From: Porphyridium purpureum
Lineage: Eukaryota > Rhodophyta > Bangiophyceae > Porphyridiales > Porphyridiaceae
Reading direction: 5' to 3'
Assembly: GCA_008690995.1 (NCBI GenBank)
Contig: VRMN01000003.1
Coordinates: 1,860,001-1,924,000, forward strand
Length of the DNA: 64,000 nucleotides
Shown here piece after piece: positions 665 to 49,783 of the stretch. Position 1 is the first letter of the stretch, and every line of letters starts with the position of its first letter. The notes below the pieces were generated by a model. It was not told the DNA's origin. It made no database searches and worked only from the letters and a program-made list of their open reading frames with translations. A program made the position numbers and the translations under genes.

Positions 665-706
665 CGCACCCCCTCATCACTTCTGCGCTGGCTGCAAAGG
701 AACGAA

Positions 707-6302: not shown

Positions 6303-6421
6303 CGATTCTCCTGTTGCGCGTGGAGCGCGGGGGGTGGGGCTCGGCTATGTTGGATTCAAGGATCACATGGAAATGTGTGTATGGATGGATGGAAGACACA
6401 ATGAGGTGCGAGAATGGCCAG

Positions 6422-28072: not shown

Positions 28073-29722
28073 GCCCGTTATTCGCGCGCGGCTCCTGCGC
28101 ACCGCATTCTGGAACGCCGTCCACCCCTCGCGCTCCTCCTCCCCCTTCCTCCACCCACCGTCCCCCCTTTCCACTCCTCCTTCCCTCCCCTCACACACAC
28201 ACACACACCAAACAAATAAGCACTCAGACCCGCTTTCGTTCTTTGCCGCGCTCCTCTTCCACTCCCCCTCTCTTGAACATATGTTTTTTTCTTTTCTTCC
28301 TTCTTTTTCACCCCGCCAACCCACGAGGTACAGTTCCAAGTTCTGTTTCTCCTTCTCTTGCTTCTTCTTCTGTTTCTCCTCCTTCTCTTCTAAAACGAAC
28401 CACTCCGACTATGTTTCCGCTCGTCCGTTGTTTCCATCACGCGCTTTACCACGTCGATATCTACTCCTCCTAGATAAATAGATACGTTTTAGATTGATCG
28501 ATCTAGATCGTTTGGTGGTTGATGCGAGGTGAGCAAGACACACATTCATATGTAAACGTGATGAATTAAATCCACACGGTGATGAGACACAGTGGCGCGG
28601 TGTCAGTGAAAACGGCGCGTGTTGTGATAACAGGGGGAAATTGAGGAGGAGCAAAGTAGGATTGAAATTGAACGGAAGTACAGTGGCGTGGACTGACACT
28701 GTACTTTATCTGGGATTGCGAGGGTGGTTTGGTGTGGAGGCGGAAGCAGGCGGGGGTGAATGGATGGGACGCGTTCATTGGGGGGAGGCAGAGTGTGGTT
28801 AGAGTGGTGCGTGGTGACGATGTGGCGGAGTTACGGAAATGCGCGGCGCTGCTGAGAGAATGTGAGTCGGCGCAAGCCGCCGGGCTTGGTGGTGCGTGCT
28901 GCGAGGTGGTGAGGACTGAGGACAAGTAGGAAGGAAGAGGCGGTGCGTGACAGTATGGGTCTGGTGAGCTGGGTGAAAGTGCTAAGGGAGGAATGTCGTA
29001 GGAGGACGCAAAGCGTGGTCTGAAGGTCGTGGTCTACGGTCTGGCGCAGAGCGTGAGCGGTGGCTCGATGGCGGATTCCGGCGATAGGGTAAATATGCAG
29101 ACGCGGGTCTGCCCTGCTGCGATTTCGTAAAACTCAATGTGCTGTGAGAAGCACGAGCTCGCGTGAGTGTTGGGAGTTGCAGCAGGACGTGCAAGGCACC
29201 AGCAAACGAGCGACTGAATGGAGCTTCCAATGAGGAGACCTAAGGGCTTCGAGTTCGTCGCGAGCGTTGCCGACAGCTTTATCAGCACTGCGTTCAGCGC
29301 GGCGGGGCTCCATCGACGTTTCGGCACGGCAGGCCTTCGTTGTCAGAGCATATGCCAGTTGCGCTCAGGCTTTTGATCAGCAATCTACAACGTTTCGCGG
29401 TGTTCTGCTCGGCGGCTGTTGTATTGTTGCTAACCTCGTGCAGAAGCCGCAGAGGGGTGATCTGGTACAGGATTGCACGCCTCGGCAGGCAACGCTCGAA
29501 TTGACAACAGAATCGTGGCATTCCCTCTCGTAAGATGTTCTCGTCATCGTTTGTGGAGTAGCGTCCGCATCTGTAAGAGTGAAAAGCATTTATCGTGTTC
29601 TTCAGCTACATCCGGTTTTCTCGACATTGTAAGTTTACAAATAATTTGTAGCTTTACGCTGACCTCTGTAGAGACGTCCGTTCACACCGTCGTACAACTC
29701 GCGATTCGTACCTGAGCACCCA
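28073..29722. promoter_or_regulatory. Divergent promoter region between SMEK and the sulfotransferase gene
   Basis: 1.65 kb. The left third (about 28100-28410) is very C/T-rich on the plus strand, so the SMEK leader is purine-rich; it includes a CA repeat at 28192-28209. ACTGTAC motifs occur at 28328-28334 (reverse), 28678-28684 (reverse) and 28698-28704 (forward, followed by TTTATC). The last two form a tight inverted pair. A short palindromic AT-rich patch (GATCGATCTAGATCG) lies near 28496. Small frames around 29219-29533 show nothing recognisable. Confidence 0.5.
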
Positions 29723-30691
29723 ATGCGGGAGCAGCACCGCCTGGGTGGATGCGTCTCGTCTCTCATGACGAAGGGTGATCCTGCCTCCGGGGCGAGACTA
29801 GCGCCGCACCTGTTTCGCACGTTCTGGTGGCTCTGCGCGTTCGTATGTACCGCTGCTTGTCTAGTGCAGACAGTGCGTGGCTTGGAGTGTGACCTGTGCG
29901 CAGATAATTGGCTGTTCATTCTTGCGGCAGGAGGCCGCACTGCGAGCACGACGGCTTTGTCCATGTTTTCTCTGCTGCCGCAAATAGAGCTCGCCGGCGA
30001 ACATGCCGGGGGCTTGGAGGAGCAATTCGCTGTTTTGCGGCGGCTGGAACTCATAAACCATGGAAGCGTGGCGTGGAAGGGCCCTCAGCTACACAGTCGT
30101 GCTTTCTTCTGCGTCACACAAGAGCTGGTCAAGACCATGGTGTACGGCGCCGGACAGGCAAGCCGCGAGCCAAAGACCAAAATCGTAGGCTTTAAAGAAA
30201 TTCGGTATGTTTCCTGGCACATGCAGTGGTTCTTGGCCTCCGCCTTTCCTTGCGCGCGCATCATTTTCCCAGTGCGTCAGAATGCTTCTGCGGAAATACT
30301 CGTCAAGTCGGGTTTCAACTATGATCTTCTACACCGGGAATGGGCCGAGGAGCGCAAGGTGGCGGAATCGATCCACAAGGCGTCCCCGCATACCTCGTTC
30401 GTCCTGCCTATTGAGCGAGTGTCTGAGGAAATGTATAATTAAGTTCTGCATGGTCTGCTTGGCGTCCGCAATTGCAGCTTTCGAGCTGTTCTCGGCGAAA
30501 ACATGAACGGCACCTACAGCCACCTCCCGAAAAGAGACGAGATACGCGATCTAAGAGAGAAAGAAATGCGCATGCAGTTCATAGAAGGCGAGTGCGACGT
30601 ATCGCAGGTCGACTTTAAACTCACTGAAGAGCAACTAAGTTATAATCGATATGCGTGGCAAAAGCTCGCTGCTGAACGTGGCCGCTCATAG
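29723..30691 (+). pseudogene. Sulfotransferase-like gene with one in-frame stop
   Basis: The frame from ATG 29723 reads 239 residues to TAA at 30440-30442. It then stays open in the same frame to a stop at 30691, for about 322 codons in all. The protein has a hydrophobic segment (about 31-51), then FILAAGGRTASTTALSMF, which resembles the 5'-phosphosulfate loop of PAPS-dependent sulfotransferases. FKEIRYVSW and ARIIFPVRQNASAEILVKSG are close to the 3'-phosphate-binding region. After the stop, VLHGLLGVRNCSFRAVLGEN continues naturally, as does a Tyr/Trp-containing tail. In this alga such enzymes would sulfate wall polysaccharide in the Golgi. The TAA (where AAA for Lys would read through) makes it a recent pseudogene, an allele with a null change, a sequencing error, or a read-through gene. 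Confidence 0.7.
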
Positions 30692-31018
30692 GAGAAAGTG
30701 GGAGCTCGTTTGCGATGCCTCCAACTAGTCGTACCATGACGATATCAATCCCACGTTTGACGAAGGCTATAGAAGACGGACTTTAGTTTCACTTGTTCTG
30801 GTCAAGAACATGACCCGGCAAAGTACCGGCAGCTTTTCACAGACTGCAGACAGACGCTCCTTTTTATGGCGTTTTCCATGGTCTTATGTGACGCGCAAAT
30901 GAGGCCCGGCGACAATCTCAGATGTAGGTCTGAGCACAGAGAGCCAAGAAAAAACCCAAGAACAAACTTGCAGGTCAAGCTCACTTTCGCAACCTTGCAA
31001 AGAAAATCAGTGCGATTA
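30692..31018. other. Convergent intergenic region, nothing recognised
   Basis: 327 bp between the end of the sulfotransferase-like gene (plus) and the end of the URI-like gene (minus). It should hold both 3' UTRs. No motif or RNA gene was seen. Confidence 0.4.
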
Positions 31019-32419
31019 TCATTCCTTACCAAGCTTGTCTCTTTGGAACCTTGTTCCAGTCTTCGACATCGGTTTGGGCTTCGGCCTTGGTCGAGCATTG
31101 ACGCCATGTGGCAGCGTGGGCCGCTCTCGAACAATATCGCTGAGAGCCGTGCTCACCCCCTCTGTTGGTGTCGATACATACTGCTTCGGTCTGGGACAGA
31201 ACTCCATATTTTCAGTTGCATTATCCAAAGTTTCATTATCTTTGGGAATCGAGCTTATCTCTGGTCGGAGTTCGGGCAACGTCTCGGTGGGAGCAAAAGT
31301 CACCTTCGATGCGCGTTTTTGCATTGCACCAGGCTCTTTAAACGGAGGGGCGACCTCTGCAGATGGACCTGGCGCGGGTCCACCCGAATCGTCCAGAAGA
31401 AATCCCGATCTGAATCCTTGTGCAAATGTGCCACTTGGCTGTGAGACCTTTGCTGAATCAGTTGTGCTGAAGTGCTGAGGTTTGTCATGAGCGGTTCGCG
31501 AACCACCTTCTCTGATATCATCAGCATTAGAGCCGGCTTCTGGAGAACTGCTGTCTAGACCGGTGCCAAACGCTTGCAAGAACGTGCTGTGTAAGGCGTC
31601 CAGTTCCTCTAGTGATGATCCTGCTTCGGATGACATGCCACTTTCACTTGTACTACCGTCAGTACTGTAATTTTCGTGTCGATTGCCAACAGCGCGTTCT
31701 AAATTCGAGCCTTTGGGCAAGGTCCGAAGCGGCGCTGCACTCAGCATGTGGTTCTCTAGTCCCAGCACCTTTGCGGGCACGTCCGATGTCTGATCCGTGT
31801 AGACTTCGACCAAGTTGACCATGGTCTCGTCCTCCTGATTTCCGGCTAGATGTCTAGAGACCCCACCTTCACTGAGAGTCACGCTGTTCTCGCGTCTGGA
31901 CTGAGAGGAACTGTCCAGCCCAGCCACGCTGGCATCCCCAGCTTCAGCAAGCAGACACTCAGCGCACATACCATCCGGTTCCGCGCTCCCGGTCTTCATG
32001 AACCGCGTGTGGCCGCGCTCTATGCAGTCTGGCTGGATGCGCTGCGCACATTTCAAAAGTCGACTGCTTTGAACCACGTCTCCATCCTTACTTTCTCTTC
32101 GGCTATCTAAGATGAGGCCATCGAGGTAAGTCATCCTGCGCTTCAAGTGGGCAATCGTTTCAGCGCGCGAGTACTCGGCAAAGGTGGACTCACCCAGCAG
32201 GACTAAGAGCCTTTCAGTCGAGATGGCACCGGCACGTACGTATACGCGCGGTCCAAAGGGGGCTAACGTTACGGAATGTTCATTTGTCGCGGCGCCGTCG
32301 CCAATCTCCTCACGCCTTTCTAGTTCTGTCACGACACATTCATACTTCGCACGCGTCTGGAGAAGCTTGTGTATGCTCTGCGAAGACGGCGTTTCCACAT
32401 AGTAAGCACCACCCGCCAT
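31019..32419 (-). CDS. URI-like prefoldin-domain protein
   Basis: The product is 466 aa from ATG 32419 (MAGGAYYVETPSS), the first ATG in a frame that opens further upstream only at a GTG. The first ~115 residues form a prefoldin alpha domain: a helix (SIHKLLQTRAKYECVVTEL), the beta hairpins LAPFGPRVYVRAGAI and RLLVLLGESTFAEYS, then a second helix (IAHLKRRMTYLDGLI). The FGP..Y..G...T..V..LG...F pattern is typical of URI1/UXT-type prefoldins, which join R2TP/RNA-polymerase assembly. The rest is acidic and disordered, as in URI1, with a basic, Pro/Lys-rich end. The conserved-looking ALSDIVRERP near the C-terminus recalls the short C-terminal motif of URI proteins. The family assignment is good; URI versus another prefoldin is less sure. 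Confidence 0.7.
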   Translation of the reverse strand: MAGGAYYVETPSSQSIHKLLQTRAKYECVVTELERREEIGDGAATNEHSVTLAPFGPRVYVRAGAISTERLLVLLGESTFAEYSRAETIAHLKRRMTYLDGLILDSRRESKDGDVVQSSRLLKCAQRIQPDCIERGHTRFMKTGSAEPDGMCAECLLAEAGDASVAGLDSSSQSRRENSVTLSEGGVSRHLAGNQEDETMVNLVEVYTDQTSDVPAKVLGLENHMLSAAPLRTLPKGSNLERAVGNRHENYSTDGSTSESGMSSEAGSSLEELDALHSTFLQAFGTGLDSSSPEAGSNADDIREGGSRTAHDKPQHFSTTDSAKVSQPSGTFAQGFRSGFLLDDSGGPAPGPSAEVAPPFKEPGAMQKRASKVTFAPTETLPELRPEISSIPKDNETLDNATENMEFCPRPKQYVSTPTEGVSTALSDIVRERPTLPHGVNARPRPKPKPMSKTGTRFQRDKLGKE

Positions 32420-32744
32420 CCCGCGCGACGGCGAGCAAGCTGATTGCGCGAGCTTGTCACTTTGCCCCCCACTTGCGGCGTCGAAAAGAGACAAGAAGAG
32501 TACAGCATAACTATGTCCACGTTTACTGTTCCGGTGGTCGACTCTGTTCCTGCGGAAAATTGACTCGGGTGGTTTGCTGGCATCCCCGGACAGAGTCGGA
32601 GAATCTGCGCCCCTGAAGACATGTGCTTGCGTGATTTTCCGCGTACATGCAAAACCCAAGAGCACAGGAAGAAAGAAAAAATAACCGATAAAGGCAGTAA
32701 AAGAACATCATTCCTGATCTTCTTCACGCAAGAACACACCCATC
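32420..32744. promoter_or_regulatory. Intergenic between SNF1 kinase and URI-like gene
   Basis: 325 bp between two minus-strand genes. It should contain the 3' UTR of the SNF1 kinase and the promoter of the URI-like gene. The open frame that extends through it from 32665 lacks an ATG, so I treat it as leader. No clear motif was seen. Confidence 0.4.
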
Positions 32745-34181: not shown

Positions 34182-35592
34182 GCTTGCGTGCGCTCCGCGC
34201 TACCGCTGCGTCCCGCTTGCGCACCACTGCAACCCCGTTTCCGAATTCACTCGTTCTTACACAACAATTAAAGCGCTTCCGCGATCACGCCTGAACATTC
34301 ACTCTCTCAGACAGCGTAGATCTCGCCGATCCGCACGCAAGCGCATCGAAGTGCCGCGACCTGAGGAAGAAGAAACAAAAAACAAAAAGGAAAAAGAAAC
34401 ACGCTCGTTGGATGACAACCAATCTGTACACTTGCTCCAACTACTTCCAACGCCGGCCCCAACTTTTAACCACGCGCGTTCCGCGCCGCCCACCGCTCTT
34501 TCCAGCACACCACCACTGCCGCGAGTCGTCACCTCTGTCTTCCCGCTTTCACTTGCCCGACTTACCACCCTTCCGTTGTTCCATCCACCCCCGCTCACAC
34601 AACTTGCACCCAAAGTTCCACCGCTGTACTTCCTTCCTTTCTTCGCAACCAGAACTGTACACAAACCCAATATAATGGTGTCCAAACCCTTGATCTAACC
34701 CGTCGACCACATGGACCAGTTAGATCAAGGGTTTCTGGCATGATCACTTTTGGCATCATGATGGATGTTCAGCAAAAGTACTGTATGACTGTACTATTTC
34801 TATGTTGCCGGAAGTTTATTTTCAGACACCCCGCCCGCGACGCTATTTTTGCAACGGCCGTTTACACCCATCTTGCGCGACATTTCCAGTGTGCTCGCTT
34901 TTGGAAACTTTGTGCACATCCAACAAAATCGGTGGCCGGCACGACATCCCACTACTGAAAAAGAAACAAAAACCAAACAAAAATTTGAAAATCAAGTAGA
35001 AGTCTGGGGTAACTAACCGAGCTCGTATGTTTGTATTAGGAAAAACGCAGTTGTGGTTAATGTGGCGATTTGTTTTTGGTGGTGGGAGAGAGAGAAAATC
35101 GAACGAAGATTTGAAATATGAGTGATCCAGAAGAGCCGGTGTCCCAATACACAAGCAATGGGACAGAGGGAGGGAGAGCGAGAGAGAGAGAGCAAGGGCG
35201 GCAGCGAGACGCATGAGAGACGTCGAACAGGTAGTGTGGGTATATTAATGAACGAGTGCCACCGCGATCAGTTGACAGGCGTGTGTGTGTGTTTGATGAG
35301 AGCGCGACAGGCATGCGTCGACGTTTAGGACAGACTGGACCGAGTGGTGCGTGTGTATAAACGCCAAGTGGGGAGCGTGTGAGGCCGCATGCGCACGAGC
35401 TGCAGAGAGCAATTTGCAGAGGCTGGCTCCCTCGCGTGTCTGCGTGAGCCTCTATCGGTGAACGGCAGAGCAAAGAGATACCAAACTGGCCTCCTTCAGA
35501 AAAGTGATCGACTGCAAGAGAAATGTTTTGAGCAGAGGCAGCGCGACACAGCGTGAGGCGCACGAAAGAGGAGCAAGAACACCAAAGACGAA
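34182..35592. promoter_or_regulatory. Divergent promoter region SNF1 / Wee1
   Basis: 1.4 kb. About 34400-34650 is C/T-rich on the plus strand (a purine-rich leader for SNF1). CTGTAC cores lie at 34624-34629, 34654-34660 and 34788-34794. A perfect 16-bp inverted repeat lies at 34684-34734. GA-rich and GT-rich simple tracts occur at about 35165-35200 and 35280-35290, upstream of Wee1. I see no protein-coding gene. Confidence 0.5.
34684..34734. repeat. Perfect 16-bp inverted repeat with 19-nt loop
   Basis: The left arm AAACCCTTGATCTAAC (34684-34699) is exactly complementary to GTTAGATCAAGGGTTT (34719-34734). The loop is 34700-34718 and contains GTCGAC. Symmetry does not extend past the arms. 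It could form a stable hairpin in DNA or RNA, or a large operator. Confidence 0.9.
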
Positions 35593-37356: not shown

Positions 37357-37674
37357 ACGGAAACGCAGCTCACATGATACCGCCGCCGCCGTCGCCGCGT
37401 CCTGCTCCTCGTCGTGCGCACACCCACGTGATGCGCACGCCGATGTATATTTGTGATCGGAGCTCAGGAGTTTCCCGAGGCTCGCACGAAAGAAGTAAAA
37501 GTAGAGTGGAGTACAGTCTGTCACGTGGAATGACCGCGTTTGCGATGAGTCTGCGGTGCTGCGCTGCTGCCGTGCGGGCCAAACACAAGGCGGCTTGCGT
37601 GCAACACGTTCCCGTGCGCGTGTGTGTGGACCCTGACGCCGAGCTTGGGCACAGGGTAGTATGGCGCGTGAAGC
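37357..37674. promoter_or_regulatory. Promoter region of the glycosyltransferase gene
   Basis: 318 bp between Wee1 and the next plus-strand gene. It carries one reverse ACTGTAC motif at 37511-37517, about 160 bp before the ATG. No other signal was recognised. Confidence 0.45.
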
Positions 37675-40392
37675 ATGAGGAGTGCGCAGGTTCAGGCAGG
37701 CAGCAGTACGCGGCGCTCGGCGTCGTTCCGTCTGCCGATGCCCGCCGCAGATGAGCAGCCGGTGTCGTGGATTGCGCGCGCGCCGCAGCAGCACGTCGCC
37801 GCACTGCGCCGCGGCGCGCAGAGTGTGGGCGTGATGGTGGATATGGTGCAGACAAATAGGCAAGCTCGGGCCGCGCTGCTGGTGGGATTGGGTCTGGTGC
37901 TGATGGTGTGGACCCTCGTCGTGCATGAGGACACGGCGCAACCGCTGAAATCAACGCCAGATCGTACCGCACAGCGCCCAGCCACACACCAAGCGAGCGC
38001 CGCTGCGTTTGGCAGGCTGACAAGCGCAGATCCCTTGCAGTCAGCATTGGAAAAGTTTATGAAGCAGAAGACGCAGTTTGTGCGTGGTGGAACACCTGCA
38101 GCCGGTACATCAGCTGGCGGGGTAAACTCAGTTTCATTGCTTGTGTCGTGTCCTGCAGGACGCGCAGCGGACGTGCCTGCAGATTGGAACAACTCTGCCC
38201 CGCGACTGGAAGCTATGGACGCGTTCAGGAAGTGCGCTGACAGCTGGCAGGCTGTCGAAGGCCTCCTGGAGGTCGTGTTTGTGCATTGGGGCTCGAATCA
38301 ATTCCGAAGTGTTCTGCTGGAACGCGAAGGGCCGGTGCCCGTCATTCATGTGCACGCCAGTACTAACGAGTATTTTAGCTCGACGCGTGCGTACAACTTG
38401 GCCTCGCGTTTCTCTAGTGCTGATGCCTTGCTTTTGGTTGACTGCGCGACCGTACTCGCCCCAGATTTTCTAAAGAAACATCGACTTGGGCCGGGCCAGT
38501 ACTACGCCTCATCTTGGGCGTCTGCACACACACCGGAGCAAGAAAGACTGCGAACAACGTTGCTAGTTGCCAAGCAGGATTTTGACTCTGTGTTTGGGTA
38601 CGACGAGCGCATGACACTGAGCGGGTATCAGGAAGCTGACATCAGCCGCCGGCTGAAAAAAGAGCGCAACTTGAAGTATCAGCAGCTAAATTTGGCATTG
38701 ATGCGTCACCTTGAAGCTGCCAGCGAGCGGCCGCCAAGACCATCACCACCAAGCAGGGGCCAAACAAGCGGGGCGATGGCGAATGATTCAGCAAGGCGAC
38801 AAAGACACGGAATATGGCAGTCATTGCTCCTTCCGGAATCATGGGGGGTTCCCGCGGACGAAGTTCCCTTCAAGGTTGGCATTCAGGTGAATGCCGTGTC
38901 GAGCGAGCGTTCCGATAAGTGGAACGATGTGGCGGTGTCCCGCTGCTGCTGGTTTATTTCTGGCACTGAGCAAGATCTCTTTTACGATGTGCGCTCGGAA
39001 TCGGTTCTCGATATCGAGCTCCACGTACGCGGTGATCATCTAGGTGCTGGCTTCGTCGAAGAACTGAGCTCCAGCGAGTTGCGCGCCGAACGCGTGGCGC
39101 TTGGTATTGAAAGGATCTTGCACGATGCCATGCGTGTGCCGTGGGACGTGCTTGTGGAGCTTTCATTCACCGAACTTCTGGATTTACTTTCATTTATGGT
39201 AGACCACGGTTCAGAATCTCATTCACGGGTAGTTTTTGCGATCATCGAGTGCGAGGACGTTGTGCAGGCACTGCACCGGCTTGTCTTGATCGTGAGCTAC
39301 TGCTCGTCGCGACAGATGGCTTGCCTTGTCTCCTTTCTACACTCTACGCTCACGTTGAGTGATTTGCTCGATGTGCACGCCACGACAGCTGCCTTTGATC
39401 GCAGCATGAACCGCGAAGAGGCAACACACTTCTTGCCACTGCCGCATTGGAAGTGTCGTGACATAGACGCGTGCACGCGTTGGGACAAGGCGTATGTCGG
39501 CATGCATGAGTTGCTCGCGTACGAGGATCCGACGAGCAGCGAAGTCTCGTTACTTTCCGGTGAAAATCTTGATGGCAGCGACACAGATGGGAAGAGCGAG
39601 AGCGTTGGACGATACAGGTCCATACTTTTTTCCTTCGAGAGCGCAGCGGGGAACTCTTCCTCCACAATCCTGGACGATTATCGGCACCTGGTGGTCCGGC
39701 TCGTAGATCCGCAATCAGCTAGGGCCAATCTGGTAGATAGTGAACCGCGGCATCTTCCGGAGCAACAGCTGTTGAGCTCTGGAGGGATCAAAGCGATTCC
39801 ATCGGTGCGCATTCCTCACAGGTTGGCGACGTCGATTCTGCACGAGCGGCTCATTCCGGACCGAGCCGTGCAGGACGTCGCACAGAGAGCTCTGCGGAAA
39901 CCCTGTCGAGCCATCTACCTGCAAGGACCAGACGACGAGCTCGACGTGCGCCAAACCGCCGCGCAGGATCTCAACACTGGGTTCCACACGTTTGTGTTTG
40001 GCTCCGACCGTTCGGCCGTTGAAGCGCTCCGCGTGCTTGCGGGCCTGATCGAGCGGGAGGAGGACGACGATGCGAGCGGAATCGACGACGCGCTCGGCAT
40101 TGAGCAGGAGGGGCTGAGCGGGAGCCGAGACGAGCGCGCGCAGCTCGTGGAACGCCGCCGCGTCGAACGGCGCATGCAGTCGACACGCGGCAATGCCGCG
40201 GCGCTAAGCAGCTCGAGCAGCCCGTGCCATGAGCCGCGGTGCTCACAAGCCACCGCGGGCGAGCTGTACGCGGCACTAATGTGCGAGCAATGGTCATCCA
40301 CACGGTCCAGCGCCAGCCGCAGCGCCCAGCGTCTGTGGACGCTCTACCAACCCCAACGCGAGCTGGGCTACTTCCATTTCGAGGAGGAGTAG
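37675..40392 (+). CDS. Golgi-type (type II membrane) glycosyltransferase-like protein
   Basis: The product is 905 aa. There is a ~65-residue cytosolic tail, one transmembrane helix (about 66-83, AALLVGLGLVLMVWTLVV), a stem, and then a GT-A-like domain. In that domain TNEYFSSTRAYNLASRFSSA, ALLLVDCATVLAPDFL and GYDERMTLSGYQEADISRRL resemble the RAxNxA, DxD and GYDE.....ED.D elements of the galactosyl/GalNAc-transferase type (GT2/GT7/GT27-like). The usual DxD metal motif appears as DCA, lacking the second Asp. The C-terminal ~500 residues contain no domain I know. Polysaccharide synthesis is a reasonable role, but the unusual metal site leaves activity open. The start ATG 37675 is the first in frame. 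Confidence 0.6.
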   Translation: MRSAQVQAGSSTRRSASFRLPMPAADEQPVSWIARAPQQHVAALRRGAQSVGVMVDMVQTNRQARAALLVGLGLVLMVWTLVVHEDTAQPLKSTPDRTAQRPATHQASAAAFGRLTSADPLQSALEKFMKQKTQFVRGGTPAAGTSAGGVNSVSLLVSCPAGRAADVPADWNNSAPRLEAMDAFRKCADSWQAVEGLLEVVFVHWGSNQFRSVLLEREGPVPVIHVHASTNEYFSSTRAYNLASRFSSADALLLVDCATVLAPDFLKKHRLGPGQYYASSWASAHTPEQERLRTTLLVAKQDFDSVFGYDERMTLSGYQEADISRRLKKERNLKYQQLNLALMRHLEAASERPPRPSPPSRGQTSGAMANDSARRQRHGIWQSLLLPESWGVPADEVPFKVGIQVNAVSSERSDKWNDVAVSRCCWFISGTEQDLFYDVRSESVLDIELHVRGDHLGAGFVEELSSSELRAERVALGIERILHDAMRVPWDVLVELSFTELLDLLSFMVDHGSESHSRVVFAIIECEDVVQALHRLVLIVSYCSSRQMACLVSFLHSTLTLSDLLDVHATTAAFDRSMNREEATHFLPLPHWKCRDIDACTRWDKAYVGMHELLAYEDPTSSEVSLLSGENLDGSDTDGKSESVGRYRSILFSFESAAGNSSSTILDDYRHLVVRLVDPQSARANLVDSEPRHLPEQQLLSSGGIKAIPSVRIPHRLATSILHERLIPDRAVQDVAQRALRKPCRAIYLQGPDDELDVRQTAAQDLNTGFHTFVFGSDRSAVEALRVLAGLIEREEDDDASGIDDALGIEQEGLSGSRDERAQLVERRRVERRMQSTRGNAAALSSSSSPCHEPRCSQATAGELYAALMCEQWSSTRSSASRSAQRLWTLYQPQRELGYFHFEEE

Positions 40393-40755
40393 ATCGAGGA
40401 GACACAGCCGCCACATTAAAGTCAACGTTAATTAATTAAGTGTTTAAGCGTGAGCAAGTGAATAAAGTACAGCTCCTATTCATGTCGAACTGTACTTTGC
40501 ACCTGTTTGTTTGTTTTCGTTTTTTTGGTGCGTGCGCAGTGCGCTCGTCGGGACGACCGCTTGGGTCTTTTGGTGTGAGAAGGGAGGAGACGGACGGGAA
40601 GAACGGAAGGTGGTGGTGGGGTCTTGGGTGTCTGGCAGCGCGTCGTGTGCACGGAGAGTCGGGGGCGGGGAGGAGTGGTACGTGTGCGCTTGGCCGCAGA
40701 GGAAGGGGGGAGCCTGTGCGGTGCGCGCGCGAGAGGCGGCGGGGTGACGGTAAGC
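40393..40755. promoter_or_regulatory. Promoter and leader of NAA15
   Basis: 363 bp. It has an inverted pair of motifs: GTACAG at 40467-40472 (preceded by ATAAA) and ACTGTAC at 40489-40495 (followed by TTTG). The last ~190 bp are strongly G/A-rich on the sense strand. An open frame upstream of the ATG starts only at TTG and is taken as leader. Confidence 0.5.
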
Positions 40756-43584
40756 ATGGGCGTCAAGGACAAGGACAAAGCAGATGGATCGGCGTCCGGC
40801 TCGGCGTTGCCCAGCAAGGAGGCCGCGTTGTTCCGGAGCATGGTGAAGATGTATGAGATGAAGCAGTACAAGAAGGCTCTCAAAGCTGCTGATCAGATTC
40901 TCAGGAAGGTTCCGGCGCATGGTGAGACGCTCGCCATGAAGGGGCTGGTGTGGTCCAGTCTCGGGCCAGAGAATAAGAGCGAAGCATATGATATGGTTCG
41001 CGCGGGCCTCAGAGCTGATCTGAGATCCCACGTATGCTGGCATGTGTACGGTTTGCTCTATCGAGCAGATCGCGATTACAAGGAGGCGTCCAAGGCATAC
41101 TTGCAGGCGCTGCGCATCGATAAGGACAACATGCAGATTCTCCGGGATCTTGCGCTGCTACAGGTGCAATGCCGCGACTTTGAAGGCTTTGAAAGCACGC
41201 GCAGAAAACTGCTCACCGTCAAGCCGAATCAAAACGCAAACTGGATTGCCTTTGCTTTGGCGCACCAGCTGAATGAGAACCACGCCGACGCCGTGCAGGT
41301 GTTGAACACATACGAAGGTACGCTCAAGGACACGAGTTCGCAAGAATCCATGTTCCCGTACGAGGCCTCGGAGCTGGCAATGTACAAACACATGCTGCTC
41401 TTTGAAAGCAAGGAGTATGAAAAGGCTCTGCAGCATCTAGAGCAGAACGAAGACAAGGTTGTGGACAAGCTGGGCTGGACAGAGGCCCGAGCGCAGTCAC
41501 TAGCCATGCTGGAGCGGTACGATGAGGCCGAAGCGGCTTATCGAACTTTGTTGCACCGTAATCCTGAAAATAAGACGTACATAGCAAGACTCGCCGACAT
41601 TATGGTCACTCGAAACAGAATACACGCCAGTCAGGCCGGCAATGAGGCTGTGACAAAGTCAGAGTCAGAACTTTATGTAGAGCTGTGCGATGCGTTGAGC
41701 GTGACATACCCAGAGGCGCTGAGCTTTCGTCGCCTCGCGCTAGAGCACACAGACGGTGACGACTTTCTGAGGCGCGCAGACGTTCTTGTTCGTCGCTTTT
41801 TGTACAAAGGTGTTCCTTCCTTATTTTCCATGTTCAAATCGATTTACAGAGATCAGCCTCACAAGGCGCAGCTTCTGGGAGGTCTGTTCGAGTCGTACGC
41901 TGCGCATTTAAACTCCAACAGCACGGCATCACTGCCTCCGTTCAAAGGTTCCGCCTACGTGGACGCGAATGGCAGTGCGAACAGCAGCGATGGAGCCAAG
42001 GAAGACAACGTGTCAGAAGCAAAATTGCAAGATTTGACACTGTGGGTGGACTACTTTTTGGTGCAGCATTACGTGGCGCTTGGTCAGCATGAAAGAGCGC
42101 TACAACTTGTCAACGACGCTCTCCTGCGGACGCCGTCCAGTATTGAGCTCTTGCTGGTAAAAGGTCGCGTGCTGAAGGTCGTGGGCGATGTAAATGCGGC
42201 CGTGAGTGCGCTGAACGCCGCGCGCAAGCTTGATCTTGCCGATCGATACCTCAACCATAAGTGTGCGAAGTATGCCATGCGAGCGAACCGCGTTGATCTT
42301 GCCGAGCAATGGATCGGGTTATTTACGCGCGAGGGCGATATCCCGCCTGTGCAGGCAATGTACGAAATGCAGTGTCTGTGGTTTGAACTCGAAAGCGGCG
42401 CAGCGTTCCTGCGCCGGGGCCTGACTGCAAGAGCCTTGAAGCGCTTTATCGCGGTGGATCGCCACTTTGCAGACTTCATTGAGGACCAATTTGATTTCCA
42501 CAACTACTGCGTTCGCAAAATGACGCTCCGCAGTTATGTGCAGGTGCTACGACTCGAAGATCACATTAAGGATCACCATGGTTATATGGCCGCGATGCGT
42601 GCGCTTGTGAGGCTTTTCCTTCGTCTCGCTGATCAGCCTCTCGAAGAGCAGCTGAAGAGCAAAATGTCGCTCATGGAAGCAGAGCTCGAGAAAATGACCG
42701 CGGCTGACCGGAAAAAGGCGCTGGCAAAGCGGAAAAAGGCTGAGGCCAAAGAAAAGACCACGGAGAAAGACAAGGAGGATGTTTCAAAAGCGGCGAGTGG
42801 AACCGGAAAGAAGGGCGATGAAGATTCGGTCGCCGGTGGAAAGAAGAAGCCGGGCAGCGCCGTGAGGCAGCCTGGCTGGATGGAAACGGACCCGGACGGC
42901 GTTGAGCTGCTGCGCAGCGTCGGCGATTTTGTGGAAGAGGCCCACAAGTATGCAAACGAGCTGGACCGTTGGGCGCCGAGAGAGCTCGAGACGCAGGTGC
43001 TCGTGTTCGACGTCGCGTTGCGTCGAAAGAAAGTGCTTGTGGCTGCGCGGGCGTACAAGCGCGCGCAGACAATCTGTAGAAGCAGCGAGGCCTTGGAGCT
43101 CGTGTGCATGGCCATCCATCTGCTCAGAGTCAGTGAGGCAGCGAGCTGGAAGCCGGTACTCAGCGCGCTTCCTGCGGAAGTGTCTGATGTGTTTCAAAAT
43201 GTTGTCGAAGAGATCCGGGGACAGACTGGAGTCAGCAGCGCGCTGGAGTACGCGCAGAAAGCGGCGACTCGTCAAACAAAGGCGTCAAGTGGCGAGGGCA
43301 TCAGTGTTGATGATCAGCTCATGCTTGCTCGGGCGCTACTCAAGATGTGCCGCACAGACGACGATTGGGCACGCGATGCGCGCCCGATGGCCGTTGGCCT
43401 GCTGCTTGAGTGGCCGAAAGATGGCGCGTCAGGCCCTTGTCTTCGCACGTGCGAGGAACTCTATTTGAACGAGCAGGAGCTTGCACTTGGCGCGGACGAT
43501 AAGCAACGGTATGTGCAATTATGCCTCGAACGGTTTCCGCGCGCCAACGTATTTGGCGGTGGCGACAAGGAGATTGTTATGTAG
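40756..43584 (+). CDS. NAA15: NatA N-terminal acetyltransferase auxiliary subunit
   Basis: The product is 942 aa from ATG 40756 (MGVKDKDKADGSASG). It is almost all TPR-type helical repeats. The N-terminal block matches NAA15/Nat1 closely: LRKVPAHGETLAMKGL, RSHVCWHVYGLLYRADRDY, DKDNMQILRDLALLQVQCRD and NANWIAFALAHQL. A Lys-rich charged segment (about 635-710, ADRKKALAKRKKAEAKEK) is also typical, and is followed by more repeats to the end. NAA15 anchors the catalytic subunit NAA10 to the ribosome for co-translational N-terminal acetylation. Length and layout are those of the family. The gene is convergent with the peptide deformylase gene. Confidence 0.95.
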   Translation: MGVKDKDKADGSASGSALPSKEAALFRSMVKMYEMKQYKKALKAADQILRKVPAHGETLAMKGLVWSSLGPENKSEAYDMVRAGLRADLRSHVCWHVYGLLYRADRDYKEASKAYLQALRIDKDNMQILRDLALLQVQCRDFEGFESTRRKLLTVKPNQNANWIAFALAHQLNENHADAVQVLNTYEGTLKDTSSQESMFPYEASELAMYKHMLLFESKEYEKALQHLEQNEDKVVDKLGWTEARAQSLAMLERYDEAEAAYRTLLHRNPENKTYIARLADIMVTRNRIHASQAGNEAVTKSESELYVELCDALSVTYPEALSFRRLALEHTDGDDFLRRADVLVRRFLYKGVPSLFSMFKSIYRDQPHKAQLLGGLFESYAAHLNSNSTASLPPFKGSAYVDANGSANSSDGAKEDNVSEAKLQDLTLWVDYFLVQHYVALGQHERALQLVNDALLRTPSSIELLLVKGRVLKVVGDVNAAVSALNAARKLDLADRYLNHKCAKYAMRANRVDLAEQWIGLFTREGDIPPVQAMYEMQCLWFELESGAAFLRRGLTARALKRFIAVDRHFADFIEDQFDFHNYCVRKMTLRSYVQVLRLEDHIKDHHGYMAAMRALVRLFLRLADQPLEEQLKSKMSLMEAELEKMTAADRKKALAKRKKAEAKEKTTEKDKEDVSKAASGTGKKGDEDSVAGGKKKPGSAVRQPGWMETDPDGVELLRSVGDFVEEAHKYANELDRWAPRELETQVLVFDVALRRKKVLVAARAYKRAQTICRSSEALELVCMAIHLLRVSEAASWKPVLSALPAEVSDVFQNVVEEIRGQTGVSSALEYAQKAATRQTKASSGEGISVDDQLMLARALLKMCRTDDDWARDARPMAVGLLLEWPKDGASGPCLRTCEELYLNEQELALGADDKQRYVQLCLERFPRANVFGGGDKEIVM

Positions 43585-43786
43585 AGTAGAAATGCCTTTC
43601 CTAAATCTTCCCGGTAGGTAGTTTAGACGAAACAGGCTCGTCGTGCGGGATGTCTCAGTGCAGGATAGAAACTGGTTCCCTGCACGCACTCAACCTAGGT
43701 TTGGCCAAGGCTGATGGAGTTGAAACGAGCATGTTGTTCCAAACCACACGGCAAGCTGCTGAACAAACTAGTCAGGCCGCGGCCAT

Positions 43787-44521: not shown

Positions 44522-44671
44522 CTGTACCTGCTGCTCCTTGTCCGCGACCCGTGTCGTCTGTCACTGCTCCCTTGCCCCCAGGGTGTACCAAAGCTGACCT
44601 TGAAGTGTGCGGCGTCGCGGGCAAAGGTGGGTGAAAGGAAGGTTGCGTGGTGATGCCATGTGAATAGAGTG

Positions 44672-47140
44672 ATGTCGGACCCGCGTCGAAGGATGTCAAA
44701 GCCGCGTGCGGCTGCGGCCGCGCGCGGTCCTGCGGCTGCGGCCGCGACGGCGGCAGCGACGACACCGCAGCGCCAGGTGGTCAAGTCGCAGGCAGAGAAG
44801 GACCGGGAATATGCAGAGCACAACGTCAATGTTGGCGTTCCGGACGCTGTGATGACGACCGCTGGAATAAAGTCATTCGTTGCCATGCTGAGCGAGTGGA
44901 GAGGTCTTGTCGAAGTCAATCGAGTGGTGCAAAGGTTCGTAGATGGGGACGAGATCGGAAACGGGTACCAAGCGTATCAAGCGAAATGCAAGATTGTGTC
45001 CGACGTGCTCTGCAGGGTGATCCAAGAGAAGGACGCCATTTCAACAGCCGAAGCGCAACAGAAGATTGATGAAATTGGGCAGAAGAAAATAGAGGAAATC
45101 GCTTTCAATGAAATTGAAGCCATTGCTCGCAGGCGCGGAAAACCGTATCGAGAGAAGGCAGTGAAAAGGCTCGACGAGCTGTTTCTTTTACCAGAAAGAA
45201 GGGAGTTCTATGACCGCCTCGTGAAGCTTTGCTACCCAGACCACTCTGAGCTCTTCAAAAGTATGGCTAAACTGCTGCCAGAGAGCCAGTTTGCCAGGGC
45301 GATTGTGCGTGACGGTGAACGTATACGCGAACGCGACAGAGTCAAGCGGGAAAGAACTGAGAGCGGTCATGACGCGCAAGAATCCGTTTTACATGATAAA
45401 AAGCGGCATGTGCCTGCGTCGCGTATGGCACTGAAAGAGGCGTCGAGTCGTTTCAGAAAGGAAATTGGTTGTTGTCGAACACCGACTGATGTGGCCAACA
45501 TTCCCACGACTCTGATGGAGTGGGGGCTGCGCATGTATGAAACAAATACTCAGGAACCCACGCAATTTCCTCAGGCGCTATCCACACCCACATTCATGAC
45601 GCAAATCGACTTGCTCATTCGCGAGACGATTTCCATGAAGTCAGGTGTCGACGGCCGCGCTGCATTGGTCCTTGTGCGTGTCTTTTGTGCAGCAGCAGCT
45701 CGCTTACGAAAGATGGCTGCAGATGGAGGGAATGATGCAGACTTTTTCGCAAGCGCAGCTTCGTTCATCAACCTATTGGCCCATCGAAGTGCCAGAGGCC
45801 TGTTCTTGAGCCCGAGGCCTCCCGGTCTTCATTTACGGGCCAGCCTTTCTCCCAGCGTCGAATGGGGTGCTCATTTTGGTGAACTGGCGTTATTTTTGTG
45901 TTGTGCAAGAGCCGGGACGATTGAAATTTATGACACTGGAGCTCTGTGCCTCGTAAACGCTGCTGTGCAGGCACGCAACTTGTTGGACCCGCCGTTGAAT
46001 GGGCGAGTACTTTTCGCGCACGAATTTGGGCCTACGTCTGAGTATGCATGCATAGCTCATCCGCGCACAAGCGATTCGAAGAGTCTGTCGCAATCGATGG
46101 CAAAGGAACCGAACTCAATGAATGCAGAGTCTGTTGGACATGATAGCAGTCGCTTAATCTACACTTTTGAGCGCGAAATGTATGCGGTTGTACCTGAAGC
46201 GCTGCAATTGTTGCAGAAAGAGTTCGACAGGCAATCAAGCGAGCGGGAAGCAAAACGTCTTCTCGAACTGCCGGGCGTGCGAGAGGCTCTGGTGTGGCTT
46301 GCATTTAGACCTCATTGTGACGACGATGTTGCCATAGATTTGGACAGTACGCACAGTGCTTCTGACTCGGAATCAGTTCTTTCTGTAGACGCTGAAACAG
46401 CCATCAGGATGCTAGGCTTGTGGTATCCAGGAGGTCGGGCAAGGCAGGAGTTCATGTTCAATTTTCGGGCCGCCGTTCAATTGTCCTGCGTTACGATCAG
46501 GAGCGACTTTCAGCTGAGAAAGGTAAAGCAGCACCAGAACGGGCTGCTTACTTTGGCGACGAGCTCGGCGCTGATCGCGCTCGGAGTGCTTTTTTGGCTG
46601 CAACGATGCGTGGCACGTCTGAGCCATCAAGGAGATCTGACTGGATACTCGGTCCAGCGTGTGAATGATATGATCGTACGGATTCTGTCTACTTTCCCGG
46701 GTCTGTGTGAGCATGGGCTGACTGTGATACGTGTCGGTATACAGAAGGGGCATGCGCGAGGCACGAGTCCGTCGCGTGTGTTCAGATTTCGCAGGATGTT
46801 CATTCACATGCTTGCGATATTCTGCACCGCGAATCCGGCGGCGGCTTGCCTTGGCATGCGACTGGTAAAGAGGTGCGAAGCAGAGGGCTTGGACAGAAGA
46901 CTTGCGCTCACCTTTGTTGAAATGCTTGTTGAGGGTTTGCTGCCGAACAACGATCGCATCCAGGAGTTTACGTTGAAGCAGTACCTGTACGACACTGTCA
47001 GTGCGAAAAGTGTCGATCCGTTCAGACAGAAACTCGACAACGCGGTGCAAAGGTGGCTTGCGCGCCGCACGTTTCAGGTCCAGAGGAGCGTGTCTGATGT
47101 ACAGAACCTGCCTGATACCGGTGCGCCAGAAATTCCTTGA
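44672..47140 (+). CDS. Large helical protein of unknown function
   Basis: The product is 822 aa from ATG 44672 (MSDPRRRMSKPRAAAAARG). After an Ala-rich start, the protein is almost wholly helical and soluble, with a charged region around residues 210-260 (ERIRERDRVKRERTESG). A C-terminal part (ACLGMRLVKRCEAEGLDRRL and FVEMLVEGLLPNNDRIQEF) faintly recalls the end of TH1/NELF-C/D. The middle part also has ERREFYDRLVKLCYPDHSEL. This resemblance is too weak to name the protein. The continuous 2.5 kb frame with normal composition makes the gene itself secure. Confidence 0.75.
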   Translation: MSDPRRRMSKPRAAAAARGPAAAAATAAATTPQRQVVKSQAEKDREYAEHNVNVGVPDAVMTTAGIKSFVAMLSEWRGLVEVNRVVQRFVDGDEIGNGYQAYQAKCKIVSDVLCRVIQEKDAISTAEAQQKIDEIGQKKIEEIAFNEIEAIARRRGKPYREKAVKRLDELFLLPERREFYDRLVKLCYPDHSELFKSMAKLLPESQFARAIVRDGERIRERDRVKRERTESGHDAQESVLHDKKRHVPASRMALKEASSRFRKEIGCCRTPTDVANIPTTLMEWGLRMYETNTQEPTQFPQALSTPTFMTQIDLLIRETISMKSGVDGRAALVLVRVFCAAAARLRKMAADGGNDADFFASAASFINLLAHRSARGLFLSPRPPGLHLRASLSPSVEWGAHFGELALFLCCARAGTIEIYDTGALCLVNAAVQARNLLDPPLNGRVLFAHEFGPTSEYACIAHPRTSDSKSLSQSMAKEPNSMNAESVGHDSSRLIYTFEREMYAVVPEALQLLQKEFDRQSSEREAKRLLELPGVREALVWLAFRPHCDDDVAIDLDSTHSASDSESVLSVDAETAIRMLGLWYPGGRARQEFMFNFRAAVQLSCVTIRSDFQLRKVKQHQNGLLTLATSSALIALGVLFWLQRCVARLSHQGDLTGYSVQRVNDMIVRILSTFPGLCEHGLTVIRVGIQKGHARGTSPSRVFRFRRMFIHMLAIFCTANPAAACLGMRLVKRCEAEGLDRRLALTFVEMLVEGLLPNNDRIQEFTLKQYLYDTVSAKSVDPFRQKLDNAVQRWLARRTFQVQRSVSDVQNLPDTGAPEIP

Positions 47141-47281
47141 GGGGTTTTCCGGCCCCTTCCAGTCCAAGGGCAGAACGCGTGCACTGCGGCAGCCGACATT
47201 GTGACCAGATTATCACGCGGCGAAAGTGGTCTCAACGAGCGGTCGATTTATTTCATGGTTCCGCCTCGCGTACTCCTCCTT

Positions 47282-48436
47282 CTACCGAATTAATGAAAAG
47301 AACTCTGCGCGCCTGTCGCGCTCCGAACGAAACACGCCGCGCATGGCCGTGGTCACCGTGCTGGCACCAGACTTCTTCACGCCACGCATCACCATGCACA
47401 TATGTTGTGCTTCAATATGCACGGCGACGCCCTTGGGTCGAATCTCTTCCTCGATCGCGTCCGCAATCTGCGACGTCAGCCGTTCCTGTACCTGCAAGCG
47501 CTGAGCGAATGTGTCCGCAATCTTGGCGAGCTTGCTCAATCCAACCACCTTGCCATTTGGGATGTACGCGATGCAGCACTTGCCGTAAAAGGGCACTAAG
47601 TGGTGCTCGCACAGCGAGTAGATATCGATACCTCGCAGCAGTACCAGTTCATGGTGATCCTCATCAAACTCTGCCGAGCCCAGAATCTGGGCGGGGCTCT
47701 CGCTGTACCCGCTGGTAAAACTAAGCATCGCCTCTGCAAACCGCAAAGGCGTCTTGAGCAGCCCTTCGCGGTCCGCGTCCTCGCCAATTGTGGTCAGGAT
47801 CGTGCGTACCGCAGCCGCGATCCTGCGTCTCTTCTCCTCGTGTCCGAGCACCAGCGCCGCGCTGCTTTCATCCTCTGTGTTCGTGGCGACCTCGTCACGC
47901 TCTCGCTTGCGTGACAGCACCTGGCTGCTCTGCTTCTGTACGGGCAGCTCCATCGATGCCTTTGCAGCATCAAGCGCCCTGCTCGCGCTCAGCAAAGGCT
48001 CCTGCGTCTCCGCCGACGAGGCGGCCTGAGGCTTGATGGCCGGCCGGCCGTCCACGTCATTCTCGTCGTTGTCGTTTTCGTCTTGGGACATGGACAGCGA
48101 CGGCGACACGGTCGATGCGTCCACGGCTGGTAGCGGCGGGTGTGAGCTACTTGGCGATACCACGTCATTCTCCTGCAGACGCCCGGCGTCATCCGCCGCG
48201 TCGGCCAATGCGCACTGCGAGCACGGCGTCCTGCTGCACTTGCTGCATTGCGTCTTGCTGGGCTTCTTCCCATTCATGACGTGGAGGTTCTTCAGCAGGC
48301 TCTCGCGGCCATGCTCGGCCCCCGCGTCCATCCTCAGCTTCGCGTCCACTTGACAGCCACGCGCCACGCCCCCGACCTCAGCGCGCAGCAGCTTCCGCGG
48401 CACGCACTCCGCTCCTCGCCGCCGCACTTCTTGCAT
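47282..48436 (-). CDS. GTP cyclohydrolase I with a Cys-rich N-terminal extension
   Basis: The product is 384 aa from ATG 48436; a shorter start at 48277 ([10 protein letters not shown]) is possible. The C-terminal ~190 residues are a complete GTP cyclohydrolase I (FolE/GCH1). They show [19 protein letters not shown], then [17 protein letters not shown] (zinc Cys and the His pair), [32 protein letters not shown] and the second zinc Cys in [14 protein letters not shown]. It converts GTP to 7,8-dihydroneopterin triphosphate, the first step to folate and pterins. The extension contains [12 protein letters not shown] (about 64-75), a CX2CX4CX2C pattern, and a long acidic linker. Such a Cys4 motif is not part of the usual enzyme. 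The 3' end is convergent with the unknown 822-aa gene. Confidence 0.93.
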
Positions 48437-48929
48437 CCACTTCCCGGCCGCCCGCAAAAATTCAACTCGCTGTTCTTTCCCCGCAGCGCCAAGACCACGG
48501 TCTCAATCCACGAAACCCACCCACTTGCTGACGCGACGCACGTTCTGGCCGGACCTGCGCAGTGGAATCGGAGCTTTACCTGGCCACGTCCTTTCCCACC
48601 CGCCAAACCTCGACAACCGCACTGCCCTTCCCGCCGCTGCTCATCTGTCTGCACGCTTCTATCCTCCCCGTCTCCAACCCACCCACCTCACCACCCCCTC
48701 TGTCCTTTCTCCCCCTTCCTCTTCGCACGACTCACGCACTCTCATCACCATCCACGCCGGCCACTTCACCTCCCTCTTACTACTACCACTACTACCACTA
48801 CTACTACTACTACCACCTTCTATCACAACAACCCGCTTTACTAGACAAACATGCGCACAGTACTCTACATCGATCGACTCACCAAGCCGCATCCCACTTA
48901 TACTAATAACACCACCCACCTACATACAA

Positions 48930-48960
<31 letters not shown>

Positions 48961-49783
48961 CCTCACAATAAGAAACGGGGCGTCGGCAGTCGTCCGTGCA
49001 CTGTACCTTATTCGCACTGTACTTTACGACTTCTGGTTCGTCCAAGCCCACGGGTTTGTTATGACACACACACGTGCAGAAGAAGTGATGTGGTTAGTTA
49101 GAAGGGTTTGGGTTGACGCGTGGAAGGCGCGACCATGGCAAACATGAAAAGCGGTGTGTAGCAACAACGCAACTCACATGCTTGCGTGCGGAACGGCGTG
49201 TTGTGCGGTGGTGGACGGAACTATCCGAGTTCTCGGCTGCGACACTGTGTAACTAAGAAGAACACGAAGAACAAGGACAGTGACTGACGACAGCACGCGC
49301 GCGCATGCGGTAAGGTTCTGTGGTGTCCGCAGTACCTCATTTCTGCCATGTCGTCGAATCGTCGTGACATGACGCAGCGTCGCAACTTTCTGGTTTGGTG
49401 CGGCGGTTCTGTGATAAAGTACAGTGCGTGAGTTTCCCACACCCCCCCCCCCCCCTTCCAAATCTGTTTTGGTGACAGAAAGAGACAAACAAGGCGGTCG
49501 ATGAGAATCACTGTACTCTCATTGAAGGAGCTGGATTTTGTATGCAAGGGCGCGCGGGGGGTGAAGGAAGGAGGGGAGTGGTTGGTCTTGTGCTTTTATG
49601 TTTGCATGGGCGAGTGACACGAGAGAGACAGAGAGACAGAGTGTGTGCGTGTGCGTGTGCATGTGTGTGTGGGGTTGGGAGGGTGAAGATCGGTGGGGTT
49701 AGGGGCAGAGTGTGGAGAGAGAGAGAGAGGGGGAGGGTGGGCAGGAAGGAGAGGAACGGTGGTGGTGGTTTGGCGGCCTGTGT
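48437..49783. promoter_or_regulatory. Divergent promoter region GCH1 / F-box gene
   Basis: 1.35 kb and rich in signals. ACTGTAC motifs lie at 49000-49006 and 49016-49022 (tandem, both preceded by GC and followed by a TTA-containing tail). Others are at 49419-49425 (reverse, preceded by GATAAA) and 49510-49516. Simple tracts: a TAC/CAC triplet run at 48778-48816, a CA repeat at 48930-48956 and a 14-C run at 49442-49455. The leaders of both genes are purine-rich on their own sense strands. No coding gene is supported. Confidence 0.55.
48930..48956. repeat. (CA)n microsatellite
   Basis: About 27 bp of pure CA dinucleotide, in the divergent promoter region between GCH1 and the F-box gene. Confidence 0.95.

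Follow-up and report, generated by a model that had tools for sequence, protein, structure and literature searches.

An asymmetric seven-base word, ACTGTAC, enriched outside coding DNA in the red alga Porphyridium purpureum as a likely transcription factor binding site

Introduction

The question raised by this locus is why one seven-base word, ACTGTAC, should recur in the spacers between genes bearing Pfam names as mixed as those found in the 64-kb stretch of Porphyridium purpureum DNA analyzed here (hereafter, the window). For red algae, the promoter elements given in part of one report (PMC8966773) are no more than matches against lists of plant elements, and no nuclear promoter element of P. 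purpureum is named in the portions of four other papers that we draw upon (PMC10866757, PMC6374488, PMC6811547 and PMC10859422). One of them describes the transformation of this alga, with strong transgene expression (PMC10866757). A well-specified word present in thousands of copies might offer an entry to gene regulation in P. purpureum, a handle for finding the putative factor that recognizes it, and a testable design rule for promoters.

Results

The ACTGTAC sites of the window

The observation itself is confirmed: ACTGTAC is present, exactly, at each of the 15 positions listed in the initial annotation (Table 1), with a mean of 3.03 copies in dinucleotide-shuffled versions of the window and none of 100 shuffles reaching 15. 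According to codon-scored open reading frame (ORF) calls, all of the 15 sites lie outside coding DNA, as had been claimed, and with a cruder ORF set five of them fall within short ORFs of 122-179 codons. The six shorter CTGTAC cores assigned to the same set do exist, but they are to be removed from it, because no enrichment outside coding DNA is seen for CTGTAC when the first A is missing. An upstream placement does not hold for the site at 52084, which is flanked on both sides by stop ends, those of the F-box gene (49784-51517, + strand) and of an enolase gene (52282-53595, - strand; Pfam 1.6e-145), and no clear target can be assigned within the window to the sites at 303 and 348, which adjoin a retroelement from outside.

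Table 1. Position, strand and surroundings of the 15 ACTGTAC sites in the window.
Feature	Position	Strand	Surroundings
ACTGTAC site	303..309	+	Within exact 15-bp GCACTGTACCTTATC (301-315); faces 348, gap 38; just outside left LTR
ACTGTAC site	348..354	-	14 bp from left LTR (369-666) of retroelement insertion
ACTGTAC site	21398..21404	+	About 290 bp upstream of ORF 21688-22821 (ACBP match slightly below Pfam cut-off)
ACTGTAC site	28328..28334	-	About 260 bp upstream of PP4R3/SMEK ORF (start 28072, -)
ACTGTAC site	28678..28684	-	Left half of back-to-back pair, gap 13
ACTGTAC site	28698..28704	+	Right half of back-to-back pair with 28678; ACTGTACTTTATC form
ACTGTAC site	34654..34660	+	Between divergent kinase ORFs (starts 34181 on -, 35593 on +)
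ACTGTAC site	34788..34794	+	Divergent kinase spacer, shared with 34654
ACTGTAC site	37511..37517	-	About 161 bp upstream of ORF 37675-40392 (without Pfam match)
ACTGTAC site	40489..40495	+	About 264 bp upstream of NAA15-like ORF 40756-43584
ACTGTAC site	49000..49006	+	First of direct pair, gap 9; divergent GCH1/F-box spacer (48437-49783)
ACTGTAC site	49016..49022	+	Second of direct pair with 49000
ACTGTAC site	49419..49425	-	In exact GCACTGTACTTTATC; GCH1/F-box spacer
ACTGTAC site	49510..49516	+	About 271 bp upstream of F-box ORF 49784
ACTGTAC site	52084..52090	-	Convergent F-box/enolase spacer; exception, upstream of no called gene

Enrichment outside coding DNA

In the whole genome, where the comparison is that of the word with its reversal, ACTGTAC occurs 6320 times and the reversed word 3088 times. 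Non-coding and coding DNA were compared in a held-out sample of 200 kb taken outside the window (64.5 kb non-coding and 134.5 kb coding), the split between the two depending on ORF-based gene calls. This sample contains 43 sites in non-coding DNA and seven in coding DNA, corresponding to a density ratio of 12.8 (12.0 with a pseudocount). The 43 non-coding copies compare with 5.0 and 6.5 expected under second- and third-order Markov models, respectively; higher-order models, which contain most of ACTGTAC, expect 11.3 and 31.3 in the same sample. There, ACTGTAC ranks fourth among 8006 7-mers (top once simple repeats are excluded) and first among 629 7-mers of like composition, whose mean is 5.3. 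Shuffles, Markov models and composition-matched 7-mers together rule out chance or base composition as the origin of the set. With a cruder gene set, 264 kb contain 42 non-coding and 23 coding sites (ratio 7). The initial annotation had proposed a common cis element and had made the idea turn on enrichment over coding DNA; this enrichment is found in the held-out 200 kb, and there is strong support for ACTGTAC being such an element.

Shape of the site

All 21 single-base variants of the word show non-coding/coding ratios between 0.2 and 4.2, against 12.0 for ACTGTAC. Around it, only position -1 and positions +7 to +9 stand out in 58 non-coding sites, and the unit can be described as an asymmetric 7-bp core with a weak flank, roughly (A/C)ACTGTAC(not G)(C/T)(C/T). 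The longer, 14-bp motif initially described does have five copies in the window within two mismatches of GCACTGTACYTTATC (two exact, two with one mismatch and one with two), and its full form is three to four times above the prediction from independent flanks (13 vs 4.0; 14 vs 3.2). It accounts, however, for about 0.2% of ACTGTAC sites, and we reject it as the unit, regarding it as a rare minority variant of the 7-bp core.

Pairs and their spacing

Two of the pairs previously pointed out in the window, 28678/28698 and 49000/49016, do have a gap of at most 30 bp, while 303/348 is wider (gap 38) and 40467/40489 includes a non-core CTGTAC. Taken alone, the window gives weak evidence of clustering: as many as its two close pairs arise in 339 of 5000 permutations made within spacers. 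The held-out 200 kb contain 11 close pairs, against a permutation mean of 2.37, and no permutation out of 5000 reaches this number; the same (0/5000) is true of the window and the held-out DNA combined, so that the clustering goes beyond what placement gives. The genome as a whole has 1436 pairs with gaps of 1-30 bp, compared with 14 for reversed-word controls: 889 direct (control, 9), 303 facing (1) and 244 back-to-back (4). Repeated DNA supplies part of this count, as identical facing pairs reappear at distances of about 6.2-8 kb.

The commonest gaps among the places listed are 2 for direct pairs (17/100), 3-5 for back-to-back pairs (22/50) and 6-7 for facing pairs (10/45). These histograms cover 100 of the 889 direct and 50 of the 244 back-to-back places, from C1 and part of C2, and 45 of 50 listed facing places, five second copies of repeats being left out. 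The set of pair sequences comprised 64 of the 65 direct places with a gap of at least 6 (one duplicate was removed) and 40 of the 45 facing places, from which repeats and one nested place had been removed; two of these 40 had a gap below 6 and were then filtered. At gaps 1-4 the genome contains four facing pairs, all with gap 4, versus 76 back-to-back pairs (Fisher P about 3e-25, pairs being treated as independent), a scarcity which suggests steric exclusion. The overlapping or gap-0 facing forms ACTGTACAGT, ACTGTACGTACAGT and GTACAGTACTGTAC were absent from 264 kb, a small sample for such forms.

Position relative to genes

Site density is highest in divergent spacers (0.98 sites/kb), intermediate in tandem ones (0.59) and lowest in convergent ones (0.32). 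A site within 600 bp upstream was found for 28 of 95 sampled genes of at least 200 aa, and for nine of the 95 with a control word. Upstream of the ATG the density is 0.7-1.9 per kb over bins from 100 to 1000 bp, broad and without a sharp peak. Density is also high within 200 bp downstream of stop codons (20 sites in 18.8 kb), which we attribute to the shortness of tandem spacers. With score-trimmed starts, the DNA next to the start codon is free of sites over 10.4 kb (Poisson P 0.0009), and with first-ATG starts it has two in 9.8 kb, the depletion thus depending on the start chosen. As for orientation to the gene, the overall count is 29:25, which leans to balance because sites in divergent spacers are counted for both genes; tandem spacers alone give 13 same versus nine opposite, numbers too small to weigh much but compatible with a mild bias that may exist.

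Discussion

We consider it likely that ACTGTAC with its weak flank is the DNA-binding site of a transcription factor in a large share of P. purpureum promoters. A putative sequence-specific and broadly acting factor would recognize the word in proximal promoters, binding as an asymmetric unit of about 9-10 bp (the core plus some 2 bp on its 3' side) without a clear preference as to how it faces the gene, and adjacent copies might help one another, giving rise to homotypic clusters with spacings that range from a few bp to about 30 bp. We infer that a protein binds at ACTGTAC, and it probably acts on transcription, through activation or promoter opening. As to the family of the factor, the leading guess is that of the C2H2 zinc fingers, expanded in P. 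purpureum, whose genome gives 80 C2H2 finger matches.

Homotypic clusters of transcription factor sites are a general class, in which one short word is repeated many times in promoter-side DNA, on either strand, at intervals of a few to tens of bp. Both the promoter-side non-coding enrichment and the clustering beyond placement are found here; what differs is that the case concerns a red alga and that its factor is postulated from sequence counts. General regulatory factor sites, such as those of Reb1 and Abf1 in yeast and the DRE of Drosophila, offer a second likeness, since there too one well-specified word is common to a large share of promoters whose genes differ in function (28/95 genes in our case), although the word is another one and paired sites are common here.

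The weak orientation preference, the broad position and the mixed gene types would also fit a general factor acting at boundary, nucleosome-positioning or replication-origin elements rather than at promoter activator sites. We hold this to be rather unlikely; sites are densest in divergent promoters, a point that speaks against it indirectly.

An obligate homodimer seated on two ACTGTAC half-sites, close to the dimeric factor initially proposed, would account for the excess of close pairs and for the favoured gaps among the places listed. It appears unlikely. Were no site shared between pairs, the paired fraction of the 6320 sites would still be about 45% at most; lone copies too occur upstream of starts; all three orientations are present, and the spacing, as seen in the listed places, is broad, with no single combination of orientation and spacing dominating. 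Limited pairing, mixed orientation and broad spacing are better fitted by an asymmetric site for a monomer, with cooperation between neighbours, and of the original proposal the cis element stands and the dimer is not established.

If the word acted instead in the RNA, as a UTR, polyadenylation or stability signal, the density after stop codons and the lean towards the strand of the gene in tandem spacers would be expected. That lean is small, however, convergent spacers are the least dense and at most two sites lie within 100 bp of the ATG, all of which makes an RNA-level role very improbable. The same low probability is given to the view that the sites are remnants of a dispersed repeat or owe their spread to retrotransposons. 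Some identical facing pairs are indeed spaced as LTRs would be, and LTR elements make up 8% of the P. purpureum genome, as stated in a portion of PMC6811547; against this, the 58 non-coding sites have no clear common sequence beyond about 11 bp and the window's own LTRs (298 bp) carry no ACTGTAC.

SBP-domain proteins such as CRR1 of Chlamydomonas bind a GTAC copper element, and GTAC ends the ACTGTAC core. This reading is rejected: GTAC is insufficient and the full ACTGTAC is required, as CCTGTAC, GCTGTAC and TCTGTAC stand at background (ratios 0.9, 0.9 and 0.7 in the held-out 200 kb), no SBP match was found in the genome (weak by itself, the search control having matched in no genome), and zero SBP genes are listed for P. 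purpureum (PMC4827209, Table 3).

Returning to the transcription factor site, a more comprehensive picture, possible but doubtful as a whole, is that a single lineage-specific factor, perhaps one of the expanded C2H2 proteins, serves about one third of P. purpureum promoters through the asymmetric 9-10 bp site. Partners would bind 3' of it, forming fixed composites (ACTGTAC-YTTATC, which has a GATAAR partner, and ACTGTAC-ACTACT), LTR retrotransposons would carry ACTGTAC as their own promoter, and photosynthetic antenna genes would be preferred targets.

As regards the antenna, ten phycobilisome linker matches were found, six of which were examined; at two of the linker loci (L043 and L047) the site lies within a further open frame, located on the opposite or the neighbouring side. 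A parallel search for LHC genes yielded no loci. In a post hoc comparison on this small sample (Fisher P 0.014 against the baseline of sampled genes), five of the six loci have a site within 600 bp upstream.

Enrichment Outside Coding DNA

The initial annotation had described ACTGTAC as a recurring intergenic word, and all 15 window positions assigned to it hold it exactly, five times the expectation (shuffled mean 3.03; none of 100 shuffles reached 15). The six places of the shorter CTGTAC were also recovered, and five copies match the 15-bp GCACTGTACYTTATC with at most two mismatches. Since the idea came from the window itself, the test was carried out on 200 kb held out from the same contig (C2:100001-200000 and C2:1000001-1100000), where coding and non-coding DNA were separated by ORFs filtered by codon score. 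In this sample, 43 copies fall in 64.5 kb of non-coding and 7 in 134.5 kb of coding DNA (ratio 12.8); the promoter versus coding comparison, named beforehand as the refuting check for the whole genome, here shows a clear enrichment. The word ranks fourth among 8006 held-out 7-mers, with only poly-A and CA repeats ahead, and first among the 629 of like composition. Markov models of the first to third order predict 3.7-6.5 of the 43 non-coding copies, and those of the fourth and fifth order, which already hold most of the word, 11.3 and 31.3. With a cruder gene set, counting many doubtful short ORFs as coding, the 264 kb formed by the held-out DNA and the window still yielded 42 non-coding versus 23 coding copies (0.78 versus 0.11 per kb). 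The promoter versus coding comparison as such is confined to these 264 kb from a single contig, roughly 1% of the genome. The whole genome (22.16 Mb, 46 contigs) holds 3181 copies in forward and 3139 in reverse orientation, versus 1548 and 1540 of the word read backwards, used as control. AACCCTA/TAGGGTT, a telobox-like word, is likewise commoner in non-coding DNA (11 versus 3 in the sampled 264 kb).

Core, Flanks and Composite Forms

Any single-base change lowers the held-out non-coding/coding ratio from 12.0 to 0.2-4.2; the core is therefore a well-specified, non-palindromic heptamer. At 58 sites, C or A is preferred before the core, and in the three positions after it G is avoided, followed by pyrimidines; G is the first 3' base in 9 of 198 flanks (direct pairs supply 64 of them, facing pairs 76 and the sampled sites 58). 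The extended forms ACTGTACTTTATC (13 genome copies versus 4.0 expected under independent flanks) and GCACTGTACYTTAT (14 versus 3.2), neither of which occurs backwards, represent a real but rare composite. ACTACT directly 3' of ACTGTAC, in 7 of the 198 flanks, is far above chance, some cases being the two sides of one pair, and a second composite element is possible.

Pairing and Spacing

Pairs with gaps of 1-30 bp are abundant genome-wide: 889 direct (control 9), 303 facing (control 1) and 244 back-to-back (control 4). When each site was moved at random inside its own spacer, the 13 pairs of the 264 kb (11 direct, 2 back-to-back, none facing) compared with 2.85, and the 11 held-out pairs with 2.37, with 0 of 5000 permutations reaching the observed count in either case. 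The proposal that the word is often paired is sustained by the held-out DNA; pairing in the window alone is not significant (339 of 5000 permutations).

Among the matches listed, the preferred gap is 2 for direct pairs (17 of 100, with several from short tandem arrays), 3-5 for back-to-back pairs (22 of 50) and 6-7 for facing pairs (10 of 45, none below 5). In the whole genome, gaps of 1-4 include 4 facing pairs, all with gap 4, versus 76 back-to-back. As both arrangements are short inverted repeats, hairpin avoidance alone cannot account for this difference. We suggest instead a footprint that would extend about 2 bp beyond the 3' end of the core and hardly beyond the 5' end; such asymmetry predicts minimum gaps near 1 (back-to-back), 2 (direct) and 4 (facing), which match those observed.

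Position Relative to Genes

Sites are densest in divergent spacers (0.98 per kb; 28 in 28.7 kb), followed by tandem (0.59; 22 in 37.1 kb) and convergent ones (0.32; 6 in 18.5 kb). The 100 bp upstream of start codons contain none in 10.4 kb with score-trimmed starts and, with first-ATG starts, two in 9.8 kb, both in one spacer; density is 1.0-1.9 per kb at 100-400 bp and 0.7-1.4 at 400 bp-1 kb. A site lies within 600 bp upstream of 28 of 95 genes of at least 200 aa (control word, 9 of 95). The 20 sites within 200 bp past stop codons (18.8 kb) may be explained by compact tandem spacing. Orientation to the gene is the same for 13 and opposite for 9 sites of tandem spacers; the 29:25 count enters divergent-spacer sites twice, once per gene. 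At 17 of 21 extended-form loci, several overlapping or inside the window, the matching copy lies clear of any ORF of at least 120 codons; the exceptions are L008 (a 465-codon ORF), L001/L029 (a single place) and L003 (short ORFs).

Window sites adjoin genes for PP4R3, kinases, NAA15, GTP cyclohydrolase and F-box proteins, and extended sites adjoin Cse1-like, MPN-domain, FAD-binding, LHC, aminotransferase and FabA-like genes; Pfam scans gave no match for two of nine extended-site ORFs and one window ORF. This mixture favours a general factor. Phycobilisome linkers as preferred targets are a lead: five of six loci fetched, out of 10 genome matches, have a site (P 0.014, post hoc). One linker, about 100 kb beyond the right end of the window on contig C2, where the window spans 1860001-1924000, is identical over 490/490 residues to chain 6kgx_b8 (LRC2) of 6KGX, which we take to be the P. 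purpureum phycobilisome structure. Within the window, a 537-aa ORF without a match in the Pfam scan overlaps an enolase gene on the opposite strand; enolase is probably the real gene of the two.

Candidate Factor

Three C2H2 fingers would suit a footprint of 9-10 bp, and because of this fit the C2H2 family is our leading, albeit tentative, guess for the putative binding factor. At least 80 C2H2 finger matches were found in the genome (150 of 185 candidates scored), some of them clustered in tandem, which fits the reported C2H2 expansion. Table 3 of PMC4827209 gives 199 factors for P. purpureum, including 60 C2H2, no SBP, 23 two-repeat MYB and 16 MYB-SHAQKYF. Our SBP search of the genome gave no match, nor did its positive control in any genome. 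No such motif was described among the papers matched on Porphyridium promoters, regulatory elements and transcription factors (most subscription papers and all supplements being beyond reach) or among the best 15 of 193 matches on red-alga promoters; ACTGTAC as a binding motif had no literature match, and no comparable motif is named in passages of PMC10866757, PMC6374488, PMC6811547 and PMC10859422.

Retroelements

A distance of 14 bp separates the ACTGTAC copy at 348 from an LTR retroelement, whose fully identical LTRs and matching 5-bp flanks point to a recent insertion. Elsewhere, identical facing pairs are repeated at distances of about 6.2-8 kb, which would fit a location inside LTRs; the host promoter word may be present in some retroelements.

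Coordinates of the features discussed (C1, C2, C18 and C38 are genome contigs)
Feature	Location	Strand	Remarks
LTR retroelement	window 369-6304
LTRs	window 369-666 and 6007-6304		298 bp, 100% identical
Identical 5-bp flanks	window 364-368 and 6305-6309
Gag/protease/integrase ORF	window 707-5755	-	inside the LTR retroelement
Recurring facing pairs	C1:1068554/1074743; C2:35702/41895; C2:1251185/1257620; C2:1302915/1310953; C2:1375444/1381858
Short ACTGTAC tandem arrays	C1:2124919-2124952; C1:2328201-2328225		ACTGTACAC repeated, 9-bp period
C2H2 tandem clusters	C18:159651-170779; C38:203934-215599; C1:1747553-1752965
Enolase gene	window 52282-53595	-
537-aa ORF	window 52237-53850	+
Phycobilisome linker gene	C2:2024715
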